Assembly: GCF_000236565.1 (NCBI RefSeq)
Contig: NZ_AHAM01000027.1
Coordinates: forward strand, 62,001 to 126,000
DNA: 64,000 bases
Direction of reading: 5' to 3'
Origin: Mesorhizobium alhagi CCNWXJ12-2
GTDB taxonomy: Bacteria > Pseudomonadota > Alphaproteobacteria > Rhizobiales > Rhizobiaceae
The notes beneath the pieces were generated by a model. It ran no database searches and was not told where the DNA came from. It saw nothing but the letters and a program-made list of their open reading frames with translations. Of the stretch, positions 7,563 through 20,528 are shown in pieces (the first letter of the stretch is position 1; every line of letters begins with the position of its first letter). A program made the translations under genes and the position numbers.

Positions 7563-8504
7563 CTAGCCTTTCACCGCGCCCGCGGCGATGCCGCGCACGA
7601 AAAGTCTGCCGGACGCGAAATAGACGATCAGCGGCACGAGGCCGGTCAGGATGGTCGCGGCCATGTTGACGTTGTATTCCTTCACCCCCTGCACCGAATT
7701 GACGATGTTGTTGAGCTGCACGGTCATCGGATAGGTGTCAGGCTTGGTGTAGATCACGCCGAACAGGAAATCGTTCCAGATGCCGGTGACCTGCAGGATG
7801 ATGGCGACGACGAAGATCGGCAGCGCCATCGGCAGCATGATCTTGAAATAGATCGCCCAGAAGCCCGCGCCGTCGACGCGCGCCGCCTTGAACAGTTCCT
7901 CCGGCACGGAGGCGAAATAGTTGCGGAAGAGCAGCGTCAGGATCGGCATGCCGAAGATCGAATGCACGATGACCAGACCCCAGAGGCTGCCGTAGAGACC
8001 CATCTCGCGCAGGATGATGACGATCGGATAAATCATCACCTGATAGGGGATGAAGGCGCCGACGATCAGGATGATGAAGAAGATATCTGCGCCCTTGAAT
8101 CGCCAGTTGGCGAGCGCGTAGCCGTTCACCGAGGCGATGATGATCGAGACGATCACCGACGGCACCGTGATGCGCACCGAGTTCCAGAAGCCGCGCGACA
8201 GCCCGTCGCAATTCAAGCCCGTGCAGGCGGTGGCCCAGGCCTTGACCCAAGGCTCGAAGGTGATTTCGACCGGCGGCGCAAAAATGTTGCCGAGCCGGAT
8301 TTCCGGCATGCCCTTGAGCGAGGTCACGAACATCACGTAAAGCGGCAGCAGATAATAGACCGCGATCAGGATCAGCGTTCCGTAGAGAAAGATGTTGCGT
8401 CGCGAAAGGACACGGCGGGGCTTCGCGCCGCGCGGACCGGAGACTTCCTCGGCGATGGCATCGAACCCGGCCGCGGCGACATTGAGGGCGGCGTGATCAG
8501 ACAT
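7563..8504 (-). CDS. Carbohydrate ABC transporter permease (MalG type)
   Basis: 313 residues with about six transmembrane segments. The inner-membrane coupling (EAA) motif reads EELFKAARVDGAGFWAIYFKI, which identifies a binding-protein-dependent permease subunit. The periplasmic region between the first helices contains a Cys near CTGLNCDG. Its start overlaps the stop of the other permease gene by 8 bp, and its stop is 6 bp from the ATPase start, so all three are translated from one message. Confidence 0.92.
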   Translation of the reverse strand: MSDHAALNVAAAGFDAIAEEVSGPRGAKPRRVLSRRNIFLYGTLILIAVYYLLPLYVMFVTSLKGMPEIRLGNIFAPPVEITFEPWVKAWATACTGLNCDGLSRGFWNSVRITVPSVIVSIIIASVNGYALANWRFKGADIFFIILIVGAFIPYQVMIYPIVIILREMGLYGSLWGLVIVHSIFGMPILTLLFRNYFASVPEELFKAARVDGAGFWAIYFKIMLPMALPIFVVAIILQVTGIWNDFLFGVIYTKPDTYPMTVQLNNIVNSVQGVKEYNVNMAATILTGLVPLIVYFASGRLFVRGIAAGAVKG

Positions 8505-9396
8505 GCCGGCGCCTCCCGAATTCGAAATATGCCCAGGGTACGATCACGATCGCCACGGTCAGCAGCATCATGGTCGAAGCCGCGAAGCCCTGGCCAAGGT
8601 TCTGAGCCGCGAACATGTAGTCATAGACGTACTTTGCCGGCACTTCCGAGGCTATGCCGGGGCCGCCGCTGGTCTGTGCGACGACCAGGTCGTAAACGCG
8701 AACGATGCCTGATGCGATGATCACCAGCGTCGTGATGAAGACCGGCCGCATCATCGGGATGACGATAAACAGGTAGGTCTTCCACATCGGAATGCCGTCT
8801 ACCCGCGCGGCCTTCCAGATGTCCTCGTCGATACCGCGCAGGCCGGCAAGCATCAGGCACATGACGAGGCCGGTGCCCTGCCACAACCCGGCGATCAGGA
8901 TGCCGTAGATGACGATCTCGGCATTGTAGAGCGGATTGAAAGTGAAGCTTTCCCAGCCGAGCTGGCGGACCACGCCCTGGAAGCCGAAGTCAGGATTGAG
9001 CAGCCACTGCCAGATAAGGCCGGTGACGATAAAGGACAGCGCGAACGGATACAGGAAGATCGTGCGGAACGTATCCTCGAAACGGATCTTCTGGTCGAGA
9101 AGCGCGGCGAGGAGAAAGCCTATCACCAGCGAGAAAATAAGCGACAGAAAGCCGTAAATAGCCAGGTTTTCGATCGCTGTCATCCAGCGCGGCGCCGCCC
9201 ACAGGCGCTCATACTGATCGAGCCCGACGAAATTCAGGCGCGGCAGCAGTTTCGAACTGGTGAAGGAGTAGAGAACGGTCCACGCGGTGCCGCCGAGAAA
9301 GACGACGAGCGCGGTGAGTACCATAGGAATCGAAGCGATCTTGGCGTTCAAATTCCTGAAAAGCTGGCTCGGGCGGCCGTTTTGTCTGGTCGTCAT
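8497..9396 (-). CDS. Sugar ABC transporter permease (MalF type)
   Basis: 299 residues. Six predicted membrane helices are visible as hydrophobic stretches, and the EAA loop is DEDIWKAARVDGIPMWKTYLFI. It forms the channel heterodimer with the next gene's product. It follows the binding-protein gene after a 62-bp gap that contains a strong GC hairpin (9424-9438), a common arrangement that gives higher expression of the binding protein than of the membrane subunits. Confidence 0.92.
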   Translation of the reverse strand: MTTRQNGRPSQLFRNLNAKIASIPMVLTALVVFLGGTAWTVLYSFTSSKLLPRLNFVGLDQYERLWAAPRWMTAIENLAIYGFLSLIFSLVIGFLLAALLDQKIRFEDTFRTIFLYPFALSFIVTGLIWQWLLNPDFGFQGVVRQLGWESFTFNPLYNAEIVIYGILIAGLWQGTGLVMCLMLAGLRGIDEDIWKAARVDGIPMWKTYLFIVIPMMRPVFITTLVIIASGIVRVYDLVVAQTSGGPGIASEVPAKYVYDYMFAAQNLGQGFAASTMMLLTVAIVIVPWAYFEFGRRRHV

Positions 9397-9423
9397 GCGG
9401 CTTTCCTGACGTGCAGGAGCCGA

Positions 9424-9438
9424 CCCCGCCAGGCGGGG
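9424..9438 (-). other. Intercistronic GC hairpin below the binding-protein gene
   Basis: CCCCGCC-A-GGCGGGG is a perfect palindrome between the binding-protein stop (9459) and the permease start (9396). No T-run follows, so it reads as an mRNA-stabilising hairpin rather than a terminator. Its role is inference from the known layout of such operons. Confidence 0.5.
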
Positions 9439-9458
9439 CCGGGCCCTTGGCTGACCTA

Positions 9459-10697
9459 TTATTCGGCGGCCGCGATGATATCGGCGTAGCGCTTCTGCGC
9501 GTCTTCCGGAGTCATCGATGGCGTCTTGAAGAACTCGACGAACAGATCGTTGAGCTGATTGTTGGTGTCCTCGGTGTTCAACTGGTTGACAGCGGGGATG
9601 ACGTTGCCCTTGGCGAGGATGTCGAGACCCTTCTTCATGCAGTCGTTGGCGGCAGTGAGGTCGACGTCGGCGCGCACCGGCACTGAGCCCTTCTTCAGGT
9701 TGAAGGCAACCTGCGTCTTCGGGTTGAGCATGGTCGAGGCAAGTACCTCCTGGGCCTTGGTCTTTTCAGGATCGTCGAGCTTGGGGAAGTAGAAAGCATC
9801 GCCGTCCGTCGAGATGAGCTCGTTGACGCCGAGGCCCGGCAGGCAGGTGTAGTCTTCGCCGGCAACCTGCCCGGCGACCTGGAACTCGCCCTGCGCCCAG
9901 TCGCCCATGATCTGACCGCCGGCCTGGCCGGTGATCACGAGGTTGGTGGCTTGGTTCCAGTCCTGCACGTTCGACTTCGCGGCCATCTTGCGCGCATCGT
10001 CGGCCGCCTTGAACACCTTGGCGATCTCGGGTCCCGCGGCCACTTCCGCGTCCTTGTCCTGATAGACCTTGAGGAAGACATCCTTGCCGGCGATGGCCGG
10101 TATCAGCACGTTGAAGGCACCGGAGTTCTGCCAGGGCTGACCCCCGATGGCGAGCGGGATCTTGCCGGCCTTCTCGAGCGCCGGCGCGGCTGCGACGAAT
10201 TCGTCCCAGTTCTTCGGCACCGGCACGCCGGCCTCCTCGAAGGCCTTGTTTGACAGCCACAGCCACTGCCAGGAATGGATGTTGATCGGCGCGCAGTAGA
10301 TCTTGCCGTCGAGCGTGCAGCCGTCGAGCAGGCTCTTTGGGCGGACGATCTCCGCCCACTTCTCCTTGGTGGCAAGATCGGTGAGGTCGCGCATCAGGCC
10401 CGCCTCCACCAGTTCTTCCGCCTGGCGGCCATGGTTGAACTGGGTAGCGGCCATCGGGTCGCCGCCGGTGATGCGGCTGATCATGACCGGACGCGCGGTG
10501 TTGCCGCCGCCGGCAATGGCGCCGTCGACCCACTTGTTGCCGGTGGCGTTGAATGCCTTTGCGAATTCGGAAACGGCCGCGGCCTCGCCGCCGGACGTCC
10601 ACCAGTGGGTGACTTCGAGGTCCGTGGCCGCGGCCGGGCCGGTAAACTGAAGTGCGACTGTCGCCGCGAATGCTGCGGTCATGAATTGATAACGCAT
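9459..10697 (-). CDS. ABC transporter sugar-binding protein
   Basis: 412 residues from the ATG at 10697, which has a strong GGAGGAAG ribosome site 5 bp upstream; a longer frame upstream crosses the promoter and is rejected. The signal peptide is MRYQFMTAAFAATVALQFTG, cleaved near AAATD. The mature part is a family-1 extracellular solute-binding protein (DLEVTHWWTSGGEAAAVSEF, and WLWLSNKAFEEAGVPVPKNW). It captures a carbohydrate in the periplasm for the permeases below. A LacI-type operator overlaps the start region of its promoter. Confidence 0.92.
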   Translation of the reverse strand: MRYQFMTAAFAATVALQFTGPAAATDLEVTHWWTSGGEAAAVSEFAKAFNATGNKWVDGAIAGGGNTARPVMISRITGGDPMAATQFNHGRQAEELVEAGLMRDLTDLATKEKWAEIVRPKSLLDGCTLDGKIYCAPINIHSWQWLWLSNKAFEEAGVPVPKNWDEFVAAAPALEKAGKIPLAIGGQPWQNSGAFNVLIPAIAGKDVFLKVYQDKDAEVAAGPEIAKVFKAADDARKMAAKSNVQDWNQATNLVITGQAGGQIMGDWAQGEFQVAGQVAGEDYTCLPGLGVNELISTDGDAFYFPKLDDPEKTKAQEVLASTMLNPKTQVAFNLKKGSVPVRADVDLTAANDCMKKGLDILAKGNVIPAVNQLNTEDTNNQLNDLFVEFFKTPSMTPEDAQKRYADIIAAAE

Positions 10698-14999: not shown

Positions 15000-15776
15000 A
15001 TGCAATTTTCGCGACGCGACACGCTGCAGCTCGCCGGGGCGGCCGGCCTCGCAGGTTTGGGGGCCACGGTTTTCATGCCGTTCACGGCCCGCGCGCAAGC
15101 GCAGGGCGACATCTACAAGACGGATGGCGGCGAGATTGTCGTCAGCCCGGTCAGCCATGCGAGCTTCGTGATGAGCGTGCCGGGGCTGGTGATCTACGCC
15201 GACCCGGTGGGCGGCAAGGCGCTCTATGACGGCCAGCCGGCGGCCGGACTGGTGCTGATCACGCATGAGCACCAGGACCATTTCGAGCCGGAGACGCTGG
15301 CCGCGATCGTCGGCGCCGACACCAAGCTGGTGGTGAACCCGGCCGTGATGGAAATGCTGCCGGCCGATCTGAAGGAGAAGGCGACCGCGATCGCCAATGG
15401 CGAGAATACCACCGTCGGCCCGGTCGAGATCGAGGCGATCCCGGCCTACAACACCACCGAGGATCGCAAGAAATATCACCCGCAGGGCCGCGACAACGGC
15501 TATGTGCTGACCGTCCACGGACGCCGCGTCTACATCGCCGGCGACACCGAGGACATTCCCGAGATGCGCGCGCTGAAGGAGATCGACATCGCCTTCGTGC
15601 CGATGAACCTGCCTTACACGATGGACATCGACCAGGCGAGCTCGGCCGTCGCCGAGTTCAAGCCAGCGGTGGTCTATCCCTACCACTACAAAGGACAGGA
15701 CCCGCAAGCCTTCGCCGCCAAGGTCGCGGAAGCCGCGGCCGAGGTGAAGGTGGTGCAGGGCAAGTGGTACGGGTGA
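15000..15776 (+). CDS. MBL-fold metallo-hydrolase, Tat-exported
   Basis: 258 residues. A twin-arginine signal (SRRDTLQLAGAAGLAGLGAT, ending near ARAQAQ) sends the folded enzyme to the periplasm. The metallo-beta-lactamase motif THEHQDHFE (about 82-90) supplies the H-x-H-x-D-H zinc ligands, and GDTEDIPEM and PYHYKGQDP carry the later ligands. It resembles the UlaG/YtnP-like subgroup without a known substrate. A strong AAGGAGGAG lies 9 bp before the ATG. A degenerate partial copy of its 3' half lies about 1 kb downstream. Confidence 0.88.
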   Translation: MQFSRRDTLQLAGAAGLAGLGATVFMPFTARAQAQGDIYKTDGGEIVVSPVSHASFVMSVPGLVIYADPVGGKALYDGQPAAGLVLITHEHQDHFEPETLAAIVGADTKLVVNPAVMEMLPADLKEKATAIANGENTTVGPVEIEAIPAYNTTEDRKKYHPQGRDNGYVLTVHGRRVYIAGDTEDIPEMRALKEIDIAFVPMNLPYTMDIDQASSAVAEFKPAVVYPYHYKGQDPQAFAAKVAEAAAEVKVVQGKWYG

Positions 15777-15790
15777 TCGTGTCGAACCCG

Positions 15791-16648
15791 TCATGACGTG
15801 TCGGGCTTCTCCAGGGCCCAGCGGGCGAGGCCGTGCAGATCGCGCAGGATGTCGTGCACCTCATGCGCCGGCCGCCCTCGACGGAAGGATTTGGGCAATG
15901 CCGCCGCGCGGCCCGGCTTGAGCGGCGAGGAGCGCCCGACCCGGCCCTGTTCGCATGCAAGCCTGCGCCGCGCAGTCCAGCGCGCGAAGCGCCTTGCCTC
16001 TCGCGGCAGGTCGTCCAGCGCGCGGCCGAGCGCTTGCAGACGCAGGTTGAGACGCGCGGCGTCGATCGGGTCGTCGGGCGCGGGCGCGCCGGGGACGGGA
16101 AACGGTTGCGTCAGACCCGGGAAGCAGATGCGGGGAATCCCGCCTGCGGCCGGCCGCTTGCTGCCGCCCCAGCGGGGCAGCGGATCGAGGAGCGGCAGGC
16201 AGAACGTCCTTCGAGGCTCGGCTTCGCCTCGCACCTCAGGATGAGGGACGTAGCGCGGCAGGATAATGCCGGTGCCGACGCCGTTGCGCAGGATAGACTG
16301 TGCCGGTCCCGGTTTGCGCGACGCGGGTTGCGGCTCGCGCGGGCGGGCCGGCGGCAAGGCGACGACGAGCCCGCGCGCGGCCACGATGATCAGCCGCCGC
16401 GCCGCTGCTTCGGCCGGGCGCAGCAGGCGCAGCACGGCGCGGTGGAGATGGCGCGGCAGGGTTAAGCGGCAGTCGGCAGTCGGCAATAGGCAATCGGTCG
16501 GGCCATCGGCAGCCTGCGTTGGTCCTGATGCCGACTGCCGACTGGCGATTGCCGACTGCCTGTTCCCCAGCCCTGCCATGCCGGCGAGCATGGCCAGCAC
16601 GTACTTCAGCGCCTCGCGGTTTTTCTCGATCGCAGCATTCCAGTCCAT
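15791..16648 (-). CDS. Hypothetical protein containing in-frame palindromic repeats
   Basis: 285 residues, not recognised. The ends look protein-like: MDWNAAIEKNREALKYVLAM at the N-terminus, and a C-terminal part rich in Arg and Leu (DILRDLHGLARWALEKPDTS). The middle is Pro/Arg-rich. Two stretches are translations of intergenic-type repeats: an inverted repeat at 16468-16497/16531-16560 (residues about 30-60) and a hairpin repeat at 16205-16250 (residues about 133-148). It may be a real small helical protein enlarged by repeat insertion, or a decaying gene. It is convergent with the metallo-hydrolase gene. Confidence 0.55.
   Translation of the reverse strand: MDWNAAIEKNREALKYVLAMLAGMAGLGNRQSAIASRQSASGPTQAADGPTDCLLPTADCRLTLPRHLHRAVLRLLRPAEAAARRLIIVAARGLVVALPPARPREPQPASRKPGPAQSILRNGVGTGIILPRYVPHPEVRGEAEPRRTFCLPLLDPLPRWGGSKRPAAGGIPRICFPGLTQPFPVPGAPAPDDPIDAARLNLRLQALGRALDDLPREARRFARWTARRRLACEQGRVGRSSPLKPGRAAALPKSFRRGRPAHEVHDILRDLHGLARWALEKPDTS
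16205..16250. repeat. Palindromic repeat inside a coding frame
   Basis: Outer arms CGTCCTTCGAGG... and ...AGGATGAGGGACG enclose the inner hairpin CGAGGC-tcggcttc-GCCTCG. This is the style of very abundant Mesorhizobium/Bradyrhizobium intergenic palindromes, here within the 285-codon hypothetical ORF. Confidence 0.6.
16468..16560. repeat. Inverted repeat of GGCAGTCGGCA units inside a coding frame
   Basis: Two 30-bp arms (16468-16497 and 16531-16560), each built of GGCAGTCGGCA-like units, face each other across 33 bp. The arms are near-complementary. The element keeps the minus-strand reading frame open and is translated as a repetitive RQSA/ADCR-type segment. Confidence 0.65.
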
Positions 16649-16744
16649 CGCCGCCTCCTCTCAAGGCGGCGGGATTATCGCGCGGGGTGAAGAGGGGGTG
16701 GATAGAATTTTTTCGAACAATTTTTTCAGCCTCACCCAGGGGTG

Positions 16745-16985
16745 CAGCCACCGCAGGGCCGCGACAACGGCGCGCGGCGCGTTGCTGGCGACACCGAGGA
16801 CATTCCCGAGATGCGCGCGCTGAAGGAGATCGACCTCGCTTTCGTGCCAATGACCTACATGATCGACCAGCCGGCGGTGGCACCGTTACAAGGAGCAGGA
16901 CCCACAAGCCTTCGCCGCCAAGATGGCGGAAGACGCGGCCGAGGTGGCCGAGGTGGAGGTGGTGCAGGGCATGTGGTACGGGTGA
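16745..16985 (+). pseudogene. Decayed copy of the metallo-hydrolase 3' end
   Basis: This stretch repeats the last ~300 bp of the upstream MBL-fold gene (compare 15481-15775). It has the same CCGCAGGGCCGCGACAACGG start, a 47-bp identical block encoding GDTEDIPEMRALKEI, then several deletions and a frameshift, and the same GTGGTACGGGTGA end. It has no start, no zinc-binding HxHxDH part and a broken frame. It is a remnant of a duplication or of a second gene copy, lying just outside the AT-rich island. Confidence 0.85.
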
Positions 16986-17133
16986 GGTCTCTCAGCGAGA
17001 GGGACGTTCGAGGTCACGCCCACCGTTCTGCCCTGTGCACACCAAAGTACCGCAAGAGAGATAACCCGGAGTATGCGGGCGGACGGATACGCGGATCGGC
17101 GAGATATCCATCTACGTCAGAGGTAGCGCAAGC

Positions 17134-17165
17134 TTGACACATGGCCCATGTGTTTCTGCTATAGA
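17134..17165 (+). promoter_or_regulatory. Candidate promoter with palindromic operator for the three-gene island
   Basis: TTGACA (17134-17139) is a perfect -35 box; -10 candidates are TGCTAT (17157-17162, 17-bp spacer) or GCTATA one base later. The spacer holds the perfect 17-bp palindrome ACACATGGCCCATGTGT (17137-17153), which overlaps the -35 box. A protein bound there would shut off the promoter. It lies 55 bp before the ParB-domain gene. Confidence 0.6.
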
Positions 17166-17219
17166 AATTGGCTTTGAAACCGCTATACGAAGGTTCACAA
17201 ACCACGATTGGGAAATCGG

Positions 17220-18337
17220 ATGGCGAAAGCGCCCACGGCGGGCTTGGACCCGAAAATCACCATGGTAAAACCGGGCGAATTAAAGTTCGACCGGGCAAAT
17301 CCCCGTATGGCGGAGATGGAATTCGCCAACGAACAGGAAGTGGTAGCTCATCTCGTCGAGGAATATGATGTTGACGAGTTGGTGTTGTCGATCCTTACAG
17401 CCGGTTGGTTCGACTATGAACCGTTAATTGCAGAGCGAGACAATACCGTTATCGAAGGTAATAGACGCCTTGCAGCACTCAGGTTGATTGAAGAAGATGC
17501 CTTAAGAAAACAGATTGGATATAAGCTACCAACTGTAGATCCGATACACGAAAACGCACACCCAAAGACTGTCAGCGTTCGTTACGCCGACAGCCGAGAG
17601 GCTGCCTACGTCTATATTGGATTCAAGCACATTAACGGCCCGTTCAAATGGGATGCGCTCGCTAAGGCCAAGTTTGCATCGGAATGGATCGCCGCTGGCC
17701 ACGACGTCGAGACAGTAAGTCGAACTCTTGGGGATAGCCACAATACTGTCTTGAGACTTGTGAATGGATGGAATGTTCTCCAGCGTGCGCGTGCAGAAGG
17801 TTTCGAACCATCTGATGCTACGACAAGCTCCCCGTTCCCGATATCACATCTTTATACCGCTTTGACACGGCCTGATGTTAGGAATTCCTAGGTATCAATC
17901 TGCCGGCTAGGAGCGTTATAAGTCAGGATACAATAACGTCGGAAAAAACCGTTTCTTTATTGCAGCTGATGAACTGGCTTTACGGCCAGCGTAGCAGAAA
18001 TCAACCTTCATTAATTCGGACCCAAAATCCTGATCTTGGCACGTTAGTTCGTGTTATTGCACACGACACGGCAAGGGAAGAGCTTATCGCCAATCGCGAT
18101 TTAGATGCCGCTGCGGAAATCCTTACGCCGTCCCACGAACGTTTTGAGATCGTGCTTCGGCAAGCCGCCCGTGCTTGCGAAGAGGCTTTAGCTGCTTCGA
18201 AGGACTTTGATGGCAGCCCTACGCTGTTGGAAATCGTGAACAATATGGGCAAGACGCTCTTGGCTTTGCGCCAAGGGATGCTGTCGACGCAATCAGACCC
18301 CCTGGCGGCATTCGCTGATGCTCCTTCAAAGACCTGA
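17220..18337 (+). pseudogene. ParB/Srx N-terminal domain protein, interrupted by a single-base frameshift
   Basis: The first frame runs to a stop at 17889-17891. The second part is open in another frame from before 17882 to 18337. Joining them after D-V-R (codon 17880-17882) gives a continuous protein of about 372 residues, reading LTRPDVR then EFLGINLPAR; adding one G to the AGG at 17880 restores the frame. The N-terminal ParB-like fold has the box VIEGNRRLAALRLI (about 77-90), which in ParB relatives binds CTP or nucleotide; a helix-turn-helix-like segment (VSRTLGDSHNTVLRLV) follows. The start is ATG 17220; TTG 17208 is an alternative. It is the first gene of an overlapping trio with a nuclease-like gene and a DNA methyltransferase. 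It may be a mutation, a sequencing error or programmed frameshifting. Confidence 0.75.
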
Positions 18338-19418
18338 AGAAGCAGTGCCGGCAAGTCGCCTGGCAGATTGGCTGGAACTGTTATCCGCATCTCAGCGTGA
18401 ACGAACGTTCGGCGGCGGTGAACTTCAAAAGATCATCCGAATGGAAGCGGAGGATCGCAGCAGCCGCCTTGTGCATGACGAGGTCTCTGGCGAGATAGCT
18501 GAAGGCGAAATAGTGGCCATCGAGAACTCGGAAATCATAAGTCATGTTTTTGATGAGCTTCAAAAGCGGGCAGATTTGTTGGCCGACAGCTATCCATTTG
18601 TTGTCGAAGCAACTGGCGCCGGCGTAACGGCACGCAAACGACTTAGCTGGCGACCAGATGCGCTAGACACACCCGGCGCGGTAATCTATCTTTACTGTCT
18701 TTTGATTTCGGCCCGGCGGCTTGGCTTACTTGAATTGGATGCAGACGACCACGCCCAAACAACCGCCGACGGAACTCAACTCCACTCCGAGTACATGTAC
18801 GGGTTTTTGCTACAGATCTGCGCGACGATCGCTATGGGCGGCTACCTTCGCGGCACTGTGATTTCTTTCGGCTATCCACGCCCAGACAAGTCCAATTTTC
18901 TAGCAGCCAACCGGAGTGCTTGGACCCGGTTCGGCGCATACAAGCCTGTTGATAGGGTTCCCTACGGCGCTCCCAACGAAGAGAATGACGCGGGAATCGA
19001 CCTGATAGCCTGGGTTGACTTCAACGATCGGCACGGGTCCAAGGTCTTGGTTTTTGGGCAAGTGGCATCTGGCAGGAATTGGACCGGGAAGTCAGCCTTG
19101 GATCGCGCGCATGCTTTGCGCAGTTGGTTCGCAGGCCCGAGCTACACACACATGCTACCGGCCATGGTGATGCCATTTAATGTTACTGATGCGCGTAAAA
19201 CTATTGAACGCGGTCCCGTTGATATGCGGGCCGCTGTTTTCGAGTTTGAAGAACGTCAATTCGGCATTGTTTTGGACAGAGAGCGTGTAGCTGCATGCGC
19301 GGCGGTTGCGCTGCAGTTCGAAGATGAGGATAAGGCGAGAGTTGAAGGCATCGAGCGATTCGAACTGGTAAAGGAGTGGGTAAGTACCACGCTTGAACAT
19401 CTTAGGGGGGAAGCGTGA
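18318..19418 (+). CDS. Unrecognised protein with nuclease-like motif, between ParB-like and methyltransferase genes
   Basis: 366 residues, no family recognised with confidence. The N-terminal third is acidic and helical. The C-terminal half contains D228 (AGIDLIAW) and, 20 residues later, Q248 in [16 protein letters not shown], with K258. A D-x(n)-Q-x-x-x-G/K layout on two beta strands is reminiscent of PD-(D/E)XK nucleases that use Gln in place of Glu, so a restriction endonuclease role is plausible (inference). It starts 20 bp before the ParB-frame stop and ends in a TGATG junction with the methyltransferase. GC content is clearly below the neighbours. Confidence 0.6.
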
Positions 19419-20515
19419 TGCGCAATCCCCTGCATTCAATCTGTCCTTACTTCGCGATGTTTCCTGAGAGCTTTGTCCAAAAGCAGTTGCTAGCCTATTC
19501 GCGCCCGGGGGATAAAGTATTTGATCCATTCTGCGGGCGAGGCACTACAATACTTGAAGGATTATTAAATGATCGGAACGCAATAGGATCTGATATTAAC
19601 CCAGTGGGAGCCTGCATTTCTGGGGCAAAAGCTGATATACCGGCGCGCGACGAGGTACTGCAGAGGATTACTGCTTTAAAAGAAGGGTTCGCGTCGTGTA
19701 CATCTTTACAGCATCCACAGGATGAATTTTTTTCACTTTGCTTTGAAAAAAATACATTACGGCAAATCCTTTTCTTACAAAAGGAACTAAGCTGGAAGGA
19801 TGACCCGGTAGATAGGTTTGTTGCCGCGCTAATGCTTGGCATTTTGCACGGCGAGTCACACAAGTCGGAGCTCTGTCTTAGTAATCGGATGCCACGAACA
19901 ATTAGCACTAAACCTGCTTATTCCGTCCGATGGTGGAAGGAACATCAGCTCACTCCTCCTAGCCGGGACGCATTTGAAGTTTTGACGAAAACCGCCCTGT
20001 ATCGGTATGCTGGGGAGATTCCAACTCGCAAAGGCCAAGTGGTATTGGGCGACGCTAGGTTGGCGGGGGAATTGTTGGAAGAACATAAAGGAAGCGTCAA
20101 CCTCATCGTAACTTCGCCACCTTACCTCGATACAACAGACTATGCAGAAGATCAGTGGCTGAGGCTTTGGTTCTTAGGAGGTCCGTCGCGGCCGACTGCT
20201 CGACTTCACAAAGACGACCGTCATACTAGAACGAGTACATATTGGCTATTCTTGGAAGAGGTTTGGCGTGGCTGCCAGGTCCTTCTCAAGGAAGATGCCA
20301 ATTTGGTTGTTCGAATAGGCGGCACTATGCTCGGCAAGGATGAACTCTTCGCTGGGCTACTCACATCGCTTCGATCCGGGTTCGGTACGCGCGCGATTCG
20401 TCCGCTCCACGGCGGCGAGACCAGCACCATCAGGAGGCGACAGACAAACTCTTTTCGACCGGGTACCTCGCCAGAGAAAATGGAGCACGATTTTGCCTTT
20501 GCTGTGATCGGTTAG
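19418..20515 (+). CDS. DNA methyltransferase (SPPY type)
   Basis: 365 residues from ATG 19418, preceded by AGGGGGGAAG. A GTG one codon earlier is possible. The AdoMet motif is FDPFCGRGTT (about 35-44) with the acidic GSDINP at 57-62. The catalytic motif is TSPPYLD (232-238), the form typical of N4-cytosine enzymes, also seen in some N6-adenine enzymes. A long middle segment (about 80-205) between them is probably the target-recognition region. Order: AdoMet motif, recognition region, catalytic motif. It is the last of three tightly overlapping genes, AT-rich, with many ATT/TTA codons, and ends 13 bp from the convergent maeB stop. Confidence 0.85.
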   Translation: MRNPLHSICPYFAMFPESFVQKQLLAYSRPGDKVFDPFCGRGTTILEGLLNDRNAIGSDINPVGACISGAKADIPARDEVLQRITALKEGFASCTSLQHPQDEFFSLCFEKNTLRQILFLQKELSWKDDPVDRFVAALMLGILHGESHKSELCLSNRMPRTISTKPAYSVRWWKEHQLTPPSRDAFEVLTKTALYRYAGEIPTRKGQVVLGDARLAGELLEEHKGSVNLIVTSPPYLDTTDYAEDQWLRLWFLGGPSRPTARLHKDDRHTRTSTYWLFLEEVWRGCQVLLKEDANLVVRIGGTMLGKDELFAGLLTSLRSGFGTRAIRPLHGGETSTIRRRQTNSFRPGTSPEKMEHDFAFAVIG

Positions 20516-20528
20516 CTCGCCGATCTTC

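Follow-up and report, generated by a model that had tools for sequence, protein, structure and literature searches.

A restriction system is usually taken to consist of a nuclease and a methyltransferase with a common recognition site. ParB-superfamily domains coupled to a DNA nuclease are found in GmrSD and SspE, and the SspE nuclease is of the HNH type. GmrSD is presented as ParB with HNH, acting in restriction, in one report (PMC12839542), and PD-lambda-5 is described in another as a compacted prophage version of a restriction-modification and abortive infection (RM+Abi) system (PMC9519451). In our study, a locus of Mesorhizobium alhagi CCNWXJ12-2 has been analysed within a stretch of 64,000 nucleotides (contig NZ_AHAM01000027.1, positions 62,001 to 126,000 of the forward strand; hereafter the window), where a ParB/KorB-like gene (A) is followed by a candidate nuclease gene (B) and an SPPY methyltransferase gene (C). 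The A+B pair has the look of an exchangeable DNA-cutting half within a defence against viruses. We consider it probable that A+B form the restriction half, and C the protective half, of a modification-gated DNA defence system. Related loci are designated below by their locus numbers (L).

PD-lambda-5 is the closest named system to A+B. The likeness lies in the ParB/helix-turn-helix part of A, matched over residues 16-165 in the window and to about residue 258 of 359 in intact relatives (PD-Lambda-5_A model position 244 of 428), and in the Dam-like partner of the relatives compared, which matches PD-Lambda-5_B at 6.6e-95 (Vibrio locus, L003) and 2.2e-94 (L035). However, PD-Lambda-5_A is a single longer protein (most PADLOC models have 428-613 positions) with another C-terminal region, and PD-lambda-5 has no separate B gene. 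In the window, the match to that single protein is confined to residues 16-165 of the 5' part of A, the part compared, C is not the Dam-like methyltransferase (PD-Lambda-5_B is absent from its 25 best matches, down to E 4.2e-6), and B matched no PADLOC model, PD-lambda-5 included. As these defining features are lacking, the window system was not filed as PD-lambda-5. The possibility that PD-Lambda-5_A is an A-B fusion was set aside, a weakly tested rejection as one exemplar was compared: the protein of Marinobacter phage AS1 was matched nearly full length by the models and showed no relation to B. When PD-Lambda-5_A was sought more widely, matches at E 1e-30 were obtained in 0 of 249 genomes, the controls being without match as well. 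The preliminary description, made from this DNA alone, could assign the trio to no known type, and this judgement stands: B is unmatched in the libraries searched, and PD-lambda-5 covers only the ParB/helix-turn-helix part of A and, at other loci, the Dam-like enzyme. In the titles, opening lines of abstracts and passages covered from open-access papers, no description of the A+B pair was found, and the main text of the DefensePredictor paper has 0 occurrences of "ParB".

The likeness to GmrSD and SspE is the coupling of a ParB-superfamily domain to a DNA nuclease, and SspE is a weak structural neighbour of A (Z 3.9). Unlike these HNH systems, B is predicted to be of the PD-(D/E)XK type and is encoded by a separate gene, whereas A is KorB/Noc-like with a helix-turn-helix; SspE did not appear among the PADLOC matches listed for A or B. 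In case of PDC-M38, a candidate system of PADLOC, the N-terminal 370 or so amino acids (aa) of its A protein are homologous to A: the profile of A (A5) matched four PDC-M38A proteins at E 6e-27 to 8e-32, over positions 1-359 of 371 in L067. On the other hand, in PDC-M38A this part is joined to a half that is ATPase-like (OLD-like by eye), and nothing in it corresponds to B. An A-B fusion was considered for PDC-M38A on account of its length and was dropped, there being no significant match to the B profile. The A half gives the impression of a portable sensor which can serve different effectors. At some of the PDC-M38A loci (L067-L070) a neighbouring protein resembles a TOPRIM-like protein by eye.

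Relatives of B were found with a profile at 24 loci in a collection of 84,980 named genomes, where a scan with the single B sequence gave no loci, and a larger profile found 31 loci among viral contigs. The B query of the window retrieved two plasmid records and related B queries gave further plasmid loci; in phage records no B was found by tblastn with two queries. Whole-genome searches found B in 4 of 297 genomes within the order, in 3 of 289 within the class (both counts include the own genome) and in 10 of 345 within the phylum of L029, the L029 genome included. A close copy of the L035 type occurs in 20 of 5426 RefSeq E. coli genomes; in the 15 rows listed, the genes are annotated as ParB-family protein, hypothetical protein (B) and DNA adenine methylase. 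By record title, the fetched loci belong to Alphaproteobacteria, Gammaproteobacteria, Actinobacteria, Chloroflexi, Bacteroidota and Riflebacteria. From 94 B rows listed, 23 were set aside as repeats, near-copies or fragments (including L065, L094, L095 and L001, which is the window), four pieces shorter than 230 aa were dropped (L031, L098 twice, L099), and L093 gave no row. The 68 proteins kept, window included, formed 62 clusters at 90% identity.

Gene A lies directly upstream of B in 60 of these 62 clusters. In both exceptions the locus lies at a contig end, with B beginning at its base 1 (L051) and base 135 (L102). The distances among A proteins follow those among B proteins (r = 0.945 over 58 loci, window and L011 excluded; 0 of 2000 permutations as high). 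Since related sequences share their history, this correlation of sequences shows joint descent rather than contact. Conservation of the trio as a unit, which had been anticipated, is thus true for the A+B pair, whereas the full trio with the SPPY methyltransferase was found in 9 of the 62 clusters. Part of the family occupies a known cargo site: of the 55 loci scanned (L010-L064, with near-copies), 13 have the gene of a P2-type replication endonuclease on the upstream side and that of a portal protein on the downstream side. In PMC9519451, this position of P2-like prophages is given as a defence hotspot and as a cargo site for different defence genes. A+B loci are also carried on plasmids.

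In 56 of the 62 clusters the locus includes a modification gene, so that the predicted nuclease and the modification enzyme are encoded together, as in restriction-modification. The kind of enzyme varies. A Dam-like methyltransferase is the partner in 30 clusters (22 convergent, 8 on the same strand), a C5 methyltransferase in 13 (10 convergent, 3 on the same strand), and an SPPY methyltransferase on the same strand overlaps B in 9, the window among them; 51 of these 52 simple methyltransferase partners lie within 100 base pairs (bp) of A or B. One cluster (L108, Neorhizobium plasmid) has a C5/DUF262/Z1/DUF4420 operon, and three have Dnd partners, where DndC-, DndD/PbeC- and DndE-DndH-like genes stand directly before A-B: L026 (a Bacteroidetes metagenome-assembled genome, MAG), L029 (Gillisia MAG) and L028 (a MAG labelled Alcanivoracaceae). 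The Dnd labels come from PADLOC for three L026 genes, the third L028 gene and DndC in the L029 genome, and from similarity to L026 for the rest. Six clusters are without an assigned partner (L017, L037, L102, L032, L033, L096), L037 and L102 being at contig ends. Labels of L026, L028, L029, L032, L101 and L108 were set by hand, and L032 was labelled "none" despite a C5 gene 1.3 kilobases (kb) away, as another restriction gene (by eye) lies between.

On the B tree these labels require 12 changes if "none" counts as a state, where shuffled labels require 29.4 on average; if "none" is left out, 8 changes suffice. The tree was built by a quick method with the Shimodaira-Hasegawa-like approximate likelihood ratio test (SH-aLRT) as its only support, and the position of long rows, L008 and L108 for example, is uncertain. 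L018, which has an SPPY partner, groups with seven Dam-like loci and one unassigned locus (SH-aLRT 100), apart from the other SPPY loci. This placement supports the exchange of partners. Like type II restriction-modification, the family combines a predicted PD-(D/E)XK nuclease with an adjacent methyltransferase; unlike type II, its nuclease is accompanied by a ParB/KorB-like protein of a separate gene, and its marker may be methylation in one locus and phosphorothioation in another. The three loci with Dnd genes recall Dnd/Pbe defence, whereas A-B gave no match to DndFGH or PbeABCD in PADLOC. In the 12 mentions listed, out of 31 in PMC10853773, ParB is named only as DndB. The window locus has no Dnd genes; the only DndC-model match of the genome is partial (1.0e-21) and is located on another contig (G000:C280:37643-38383).

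Two of the partner regions have features of their own. In L108 (7449-16665), A+B come directly after the C5 gene (annotated in two pieces), DUF262, Z1 and DUF4420, and MzaC-like and, weakly, MzaD-like matches were given by PADLOC. In L026 (5218-6798) and L028 (4720-6303), a DndE-like N-terminus is joined to a DndH-type HerA/FtsK region in a protein of about 526 aa, and this fused gene sits between DndD/PbeC and A+B.

B had been called an orphan, and no searched family library recognises it: searches of Pfam, NCBIfam and PADLOC gave nothing above chance, 23 aligned members gave six weak Pfam matches, each with a single member (best E 0.0058), and no sequence match was found in PDB with B alone or as a profile. 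The AlphaFold model of B has a predicted local distance difference test score (pLDDT) of 78 and a predicted template modelling score (pTM) of 0.83. With a second aligner, its top structural neighbours were BsmI (Z 6.8; 148 aa, 4.2 Å), FokI (6.5; 152 aa, 4.8 Å), MspJI (6.5; 148 aa, 4.2 Å), AF1548 (6.4; 112 aa, 3.0 Å), BspD6I, EcoT38I, BsaWI and SdaI, at Z 5.4-6.8 overall. The first four have PD-(D/E)XK folds. The N-terminal region weakly resembles winged helices (CtsR, HxlR and PadR rows, Z 3.8-4.4).

The residues of B agree with this assignment. D228, Q248 and R321 are present in 62 of 62 clusters. Position 250, the classical place of the E/QxK lysine, is Ala in 57 clusters, Thr in two and Lys in three, and position 258, just ahead of the next helix, is Lys in 59; the three clusters that lack Lys258 are the very ones that have Lys250 (L009, L102 and L104). 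For PD-(D/E)XK families, two reports describe a motif-III lysine that has migrated to the following helix (PMC1913061, PMC1189080). The D-x-Q-type nuclease residues of the preliminary description fit a PD-(D/E)XK-like pattern, its actual form being D228 ... Q248-x-A250 with the lysine moved to 258. Taken with the neighbours of the model, D228, Q248 and Lys258 or Lys250 give B the predicted core of a PD-(D/E)XK nuclease. No sign of any other fold was seen, as the top neighbours, at modest Z, are PD-(D/E)XK enzymes with a similar active-site pattern.

The superfamily of A was examined on the intact homologue from Phenylobacterium haematophilum (L010) and its alignment, and the fold of the 5' part of A in the window was taken from this homologue. 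Its model (pLDDT 88) has KorB (Z 11.0; 197 aa, 4.6 Å), Noc (9.5) and ParB (9.1) as neighbours, the match covering the ParB N-domain and the helix-turn-helix. Foldseek gave ten matches under E 0.001, all ParB, pNOB8-ParB or KorB (1.1e-4 to 6.6e-4), and the sequence profile of A matches ParB 4umk at E 4.8e-4. The EGNRR motif is invariant in 59 of 59 A sequences besides the window, which carries it too. A is therefore predicted to be a ParB/KorB/Noc superfamily protein with NTPase-fold and helix-turn-helix domains. It shares the predicted fold and the EGNRR motif with the KorB, ParB and Noc CTPase clamps, but is paired with a nuclease and a modification enzyme and not with a partition or repression partner. 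A match of the 5' part of A to NrnA/DHH proteins (residues 123-175, E 0.003) was taken as chance. A second, longer ParB-like protein matching the A profile is found near A+B in L025 (4366-5802, 478 aa) and L104 (9894-11381, 495 aa).

The trio had been read as a restriction-modification or other defence system, and this is supported by the computed gene pair, predicted folds, conserved residues, partner genes and their exchange, and the hotspot location of part of the family. From these we infer cleavage, mark-dependent target recognition, nucleotide use and phage restriction. In the proposed mechanism, A would find a DNA target without the protective mark and may change its state with nucleotide, as ParB clamps do. 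It would bring or activate B, the putative PD-(D/E)XK nuclease, which would then cut. The partner, whether an SPPY, Dam-like or C5 methyltransferase or the Dnd enzymes, would mark the host DNA so that A or B ignores it. The simplest reading is that A, B and an exchangeable marker constitute a variant of restriction-modification, split into a recognition/activation protein, a nuclease and a marker. A bolder form of it is put forward tentatively, its chances being a little below even: A+B would be a universal, marker-agnostic module, in which a ParB-type nucleotide-switched clamp loads at unmarked sites and passes the DNA to the nuclease, the same module having been coupled by evolution to SPPY-type, Dam-like and C5 methylation and to phosphorothioation. 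If true, there would be a restriction class whose site recognition and activation depend on a KorB/Noc-like clamp, in place of a helicase translocase or of a dimeric type II enzyme.

A number of observations weigh against this defence reading. L032, L033 and L096 have A+B without an assigned modification gene of the kinds sought, and DndC was not found in the L032 and L033 genomes or in the L096 plasmid record. In L017 a degraded Dam-like remnant (8978-9634) lies beside open A and B, which does not fit easily with a restriction pair that is active and obligate, unless the mark comes from elsewhere; in the L017 genome DndC gave a single strong match (5.1e-122) besides two weak matches, with no DndC-like gene within 6.5 kb of B. 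A marker encoded at a distance may serve such marker-less loci, or their action may be another one, directed at modified DNA or abortive. The helix-turn-helix of A tracks the methyltransferase no more consistently than other regions of A do: it is the highest region for C5 (0.79, 13 loci) and not for Dam-like (28 loci) or SPPY (7 loci) partners, and tracking by this domain was therefore dropped. With the B model, Foldseek returned nothing under E 0.001, and neighbours of Z below 8 may reflect a common arrangement, which by itself does not settle the predicted fold. As L009, L102 and L104 form one clade, the exchange of Lys258 for Lys250 is, judged from the sequences, a single event. For A, the Foldseek TM-scores are low (query-normalised at most 0.33 among the ParB rows), and Pfam gives no match above cut-off (ddrB-ParB E 0.12; none for A of L010). 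Moreover, the activity of every member is a prediction from sequence and model.

The same loci without a modification gene are among the reasons to weigh an abortive variant, in which A would sense phage DNA or failed or missing modification and unleash B on all DNA, so that infected cells die and the methyltransferase acts as antidote or sensor bait. PD-lambda-5, which has the ParB/helix-turn-helix part in common with A, is called a compacted form of RM+Abi in PMC9519451, and the fusion of A domains to an ATPase-like half in PDC-M38A means that they can serve effectors besides a site-specific nuclease. This variant is nevertheless rather unlikely, since the frequency of modification genes and the closeness of the methyltransferases suggest self/non-self marking, and since the modification genes diverge in parallel with A and B, which suggests marking and not a pure trigger. 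Maintenance of a prophage or plasmid, where a ParB-like locus and a nuclease-methyltransferase addiction pair would stabilise the mobile element, appears improbable to us. The ParB fold of A, its carriage on P2-like prophages and plasmids, and a ParA-like open reading frame (ORF) seen by eye about 0.6 kb upstream of A in L046 and several kb away in L107 speak for it; but in the other listed neighbourhoods no ParA-like ORF was noticed beside A by eye, no ParA-directed search having been made, and the P2 position takes different defence genes as cargo. Hardly credible is a role in transcription or repair, with A as regulator, B as housekeeping nuclease and the methyltransferases nearby through defence-island clustering alone. 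The predicted helix-turn-helix and the palindrome upstream of A in the window would fit such a role, whereas the patchy spread within the order and class, the hotspot location and partner genes only a few base pairs away do not.

Under the preferred reading of A+B as a restriction half with an exchangeable marker, the occurrence of one pair with several kinds of DNA marking suggests that the interface by which self is recognised may be replaceable. Should A be a nucleotide-switched clamp, DndB, GmrSD/SspE and PD-lambda-5 would be joined in immunity by a ParB fold used in the KorB/Noc manner, and the re-coupling of a nuclease from methylation to phosphorothioation would become testable. The family is widespread across bacterial groups, with B passing as a hypothetical protein in the E. 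coli records listed.

In the window, the three AT-rich genes of the plus strand are present at 17134-20515 as first described (Table 1). The last frame of A overlaps the start of B by 20 bp, and at the TGATG junction the B stop TGA (19416-19418) meets a C start at ATG 19418 or GTG 19415. The GC content of the block is 51.5%, against a mean of 63.6% and a minimum of 57.0% in the rest of the window; 0 of 1078 other overlapping stretches of the same length were as low. C had been named an SPPY methyltransferase, and the Pfam match and the TSPPY catalytic motif agree with it. Motif I (DPFCGRGTT) precedes TSPPY, N4-cytosine and N6-adenine are both possible as targets, and C is 60% identical to a homologue of Mesorhizobium AR07.

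Table 1. Features of the A-B-C locus and its borders; positions are counted from the first letter of the window.
Feature	Position	Strand	Basis or remark
Variable locus	16760..20528	.	Trio in the window, two unrelated ATPase genes in G1087
Degraded repeat of the 3' end of gene 15000-15776	16784..16985	+	Adjoins the insert
Perfect 17-bp palindrome ACACATGGcCCATGTGT	17137..17153	.	Upstream of A; possible operator, unproven
Gene A, 5' part: ParB/KorB-like N-terminal NTPase-fold domain and helix-turn-helix, 223 aa	17220..17891	+	PADLOC PD-Lambda-5_A 4.4e-14
Gene A, 3' part, other frame: helical C-terminal region, 151 aa	17882..18337	+	Homologous to intact relatives
Gene B: putative PD-(D/E)XK nuclease, 366 aa	18318..19418	+	Model, structural neighbours
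D228 codon, putative metal-binding Asp	18999..19001	+	D in 62/62 clusters
Q248 codon, QxA half-motif	19059..19061	+	Q in 62/62 clusters
K258 codon, putative migrated catalytic Lys	19089..19091	+	K in 59/62 clusters; Lys at 250 in the other 3
Gene C: DNA methyltransferase	19415..20515	+	Pfam N6_N4_Mtase 1.8e-18

The ParB-like part of A is present as reported, but the frame is disrupted in this genome and intact in relatives. The first frame from 17220 runs into a stop at 17891, and from about 17882 the homologous remainder is read in a different frame. Identity to the intact L010 homologue is about 80% for each part (81% over 145 aa for the 3' part), so the lesion is either recent or an assembly error; mutation and assembly error both fit the sequence. 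The nonsynonymous distance (dN) was 0.14-0.27, with synonymous sites saturated. A programmed frameshift was ruled out, since a single open frame encodes A in each of the 59 other clusters with this gene, A of L006 being cut by the locus edge. As A is disrupted, the window copy is probably inactive and decaying, with its methyltransferase gene still open. In L011 (Mesorhizobium MAG) the 5' region of B is disrupted at about 7987-8231, while A and the methyltransferase are open; in L011 and in the window, where B and C are open, a restriction part is the broken one.

The shared promoter with a palindromic operator was borne out in part. The palindrome exists, arms of at least 8 being found in 7 of 300 shuffles, but the sigma-70 scan listed no promoter at this region and ACACATGGcCCATGTGT was not found upstream of A in 8 relatives, 5 of them showing different palindromes (arms of 6-7). 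A single promoter carrying an operator is accordingly unproven, and a conserved operator was dropped.

The block had appeared inserted, and its borders agree with this. C ends 13 bp from the stop of maeB (minus strand, 20529). The decayed fragment on the left is a degraded repeat, 70% identical to 15537-15776. The DNA similarity to two genomes of the same genus crosses maeB and ends at 20528. In one of them, the sister genome G1087, it picks up again at window position 16760, and about 4.2 kb between hold two other genes, one encoding an AAA_35 protein and one an AAA_22 ATPase of 858 aa that matches STAND weakly (L133 7007-11197); in the other, G1088, the contig terminates at the locus. As G1087 carries unrelated genes at the same spot, the site is variable and holds different cargo in different genomes. 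PADLOC gave no match for the two G1087 ATPase genes, which stand between maeB and the gene near 16650 and are possibly an unknown defence pair. An imperfect inverted repeat (16448-16579, 73% over 137 columns) is present to the left of the insert.

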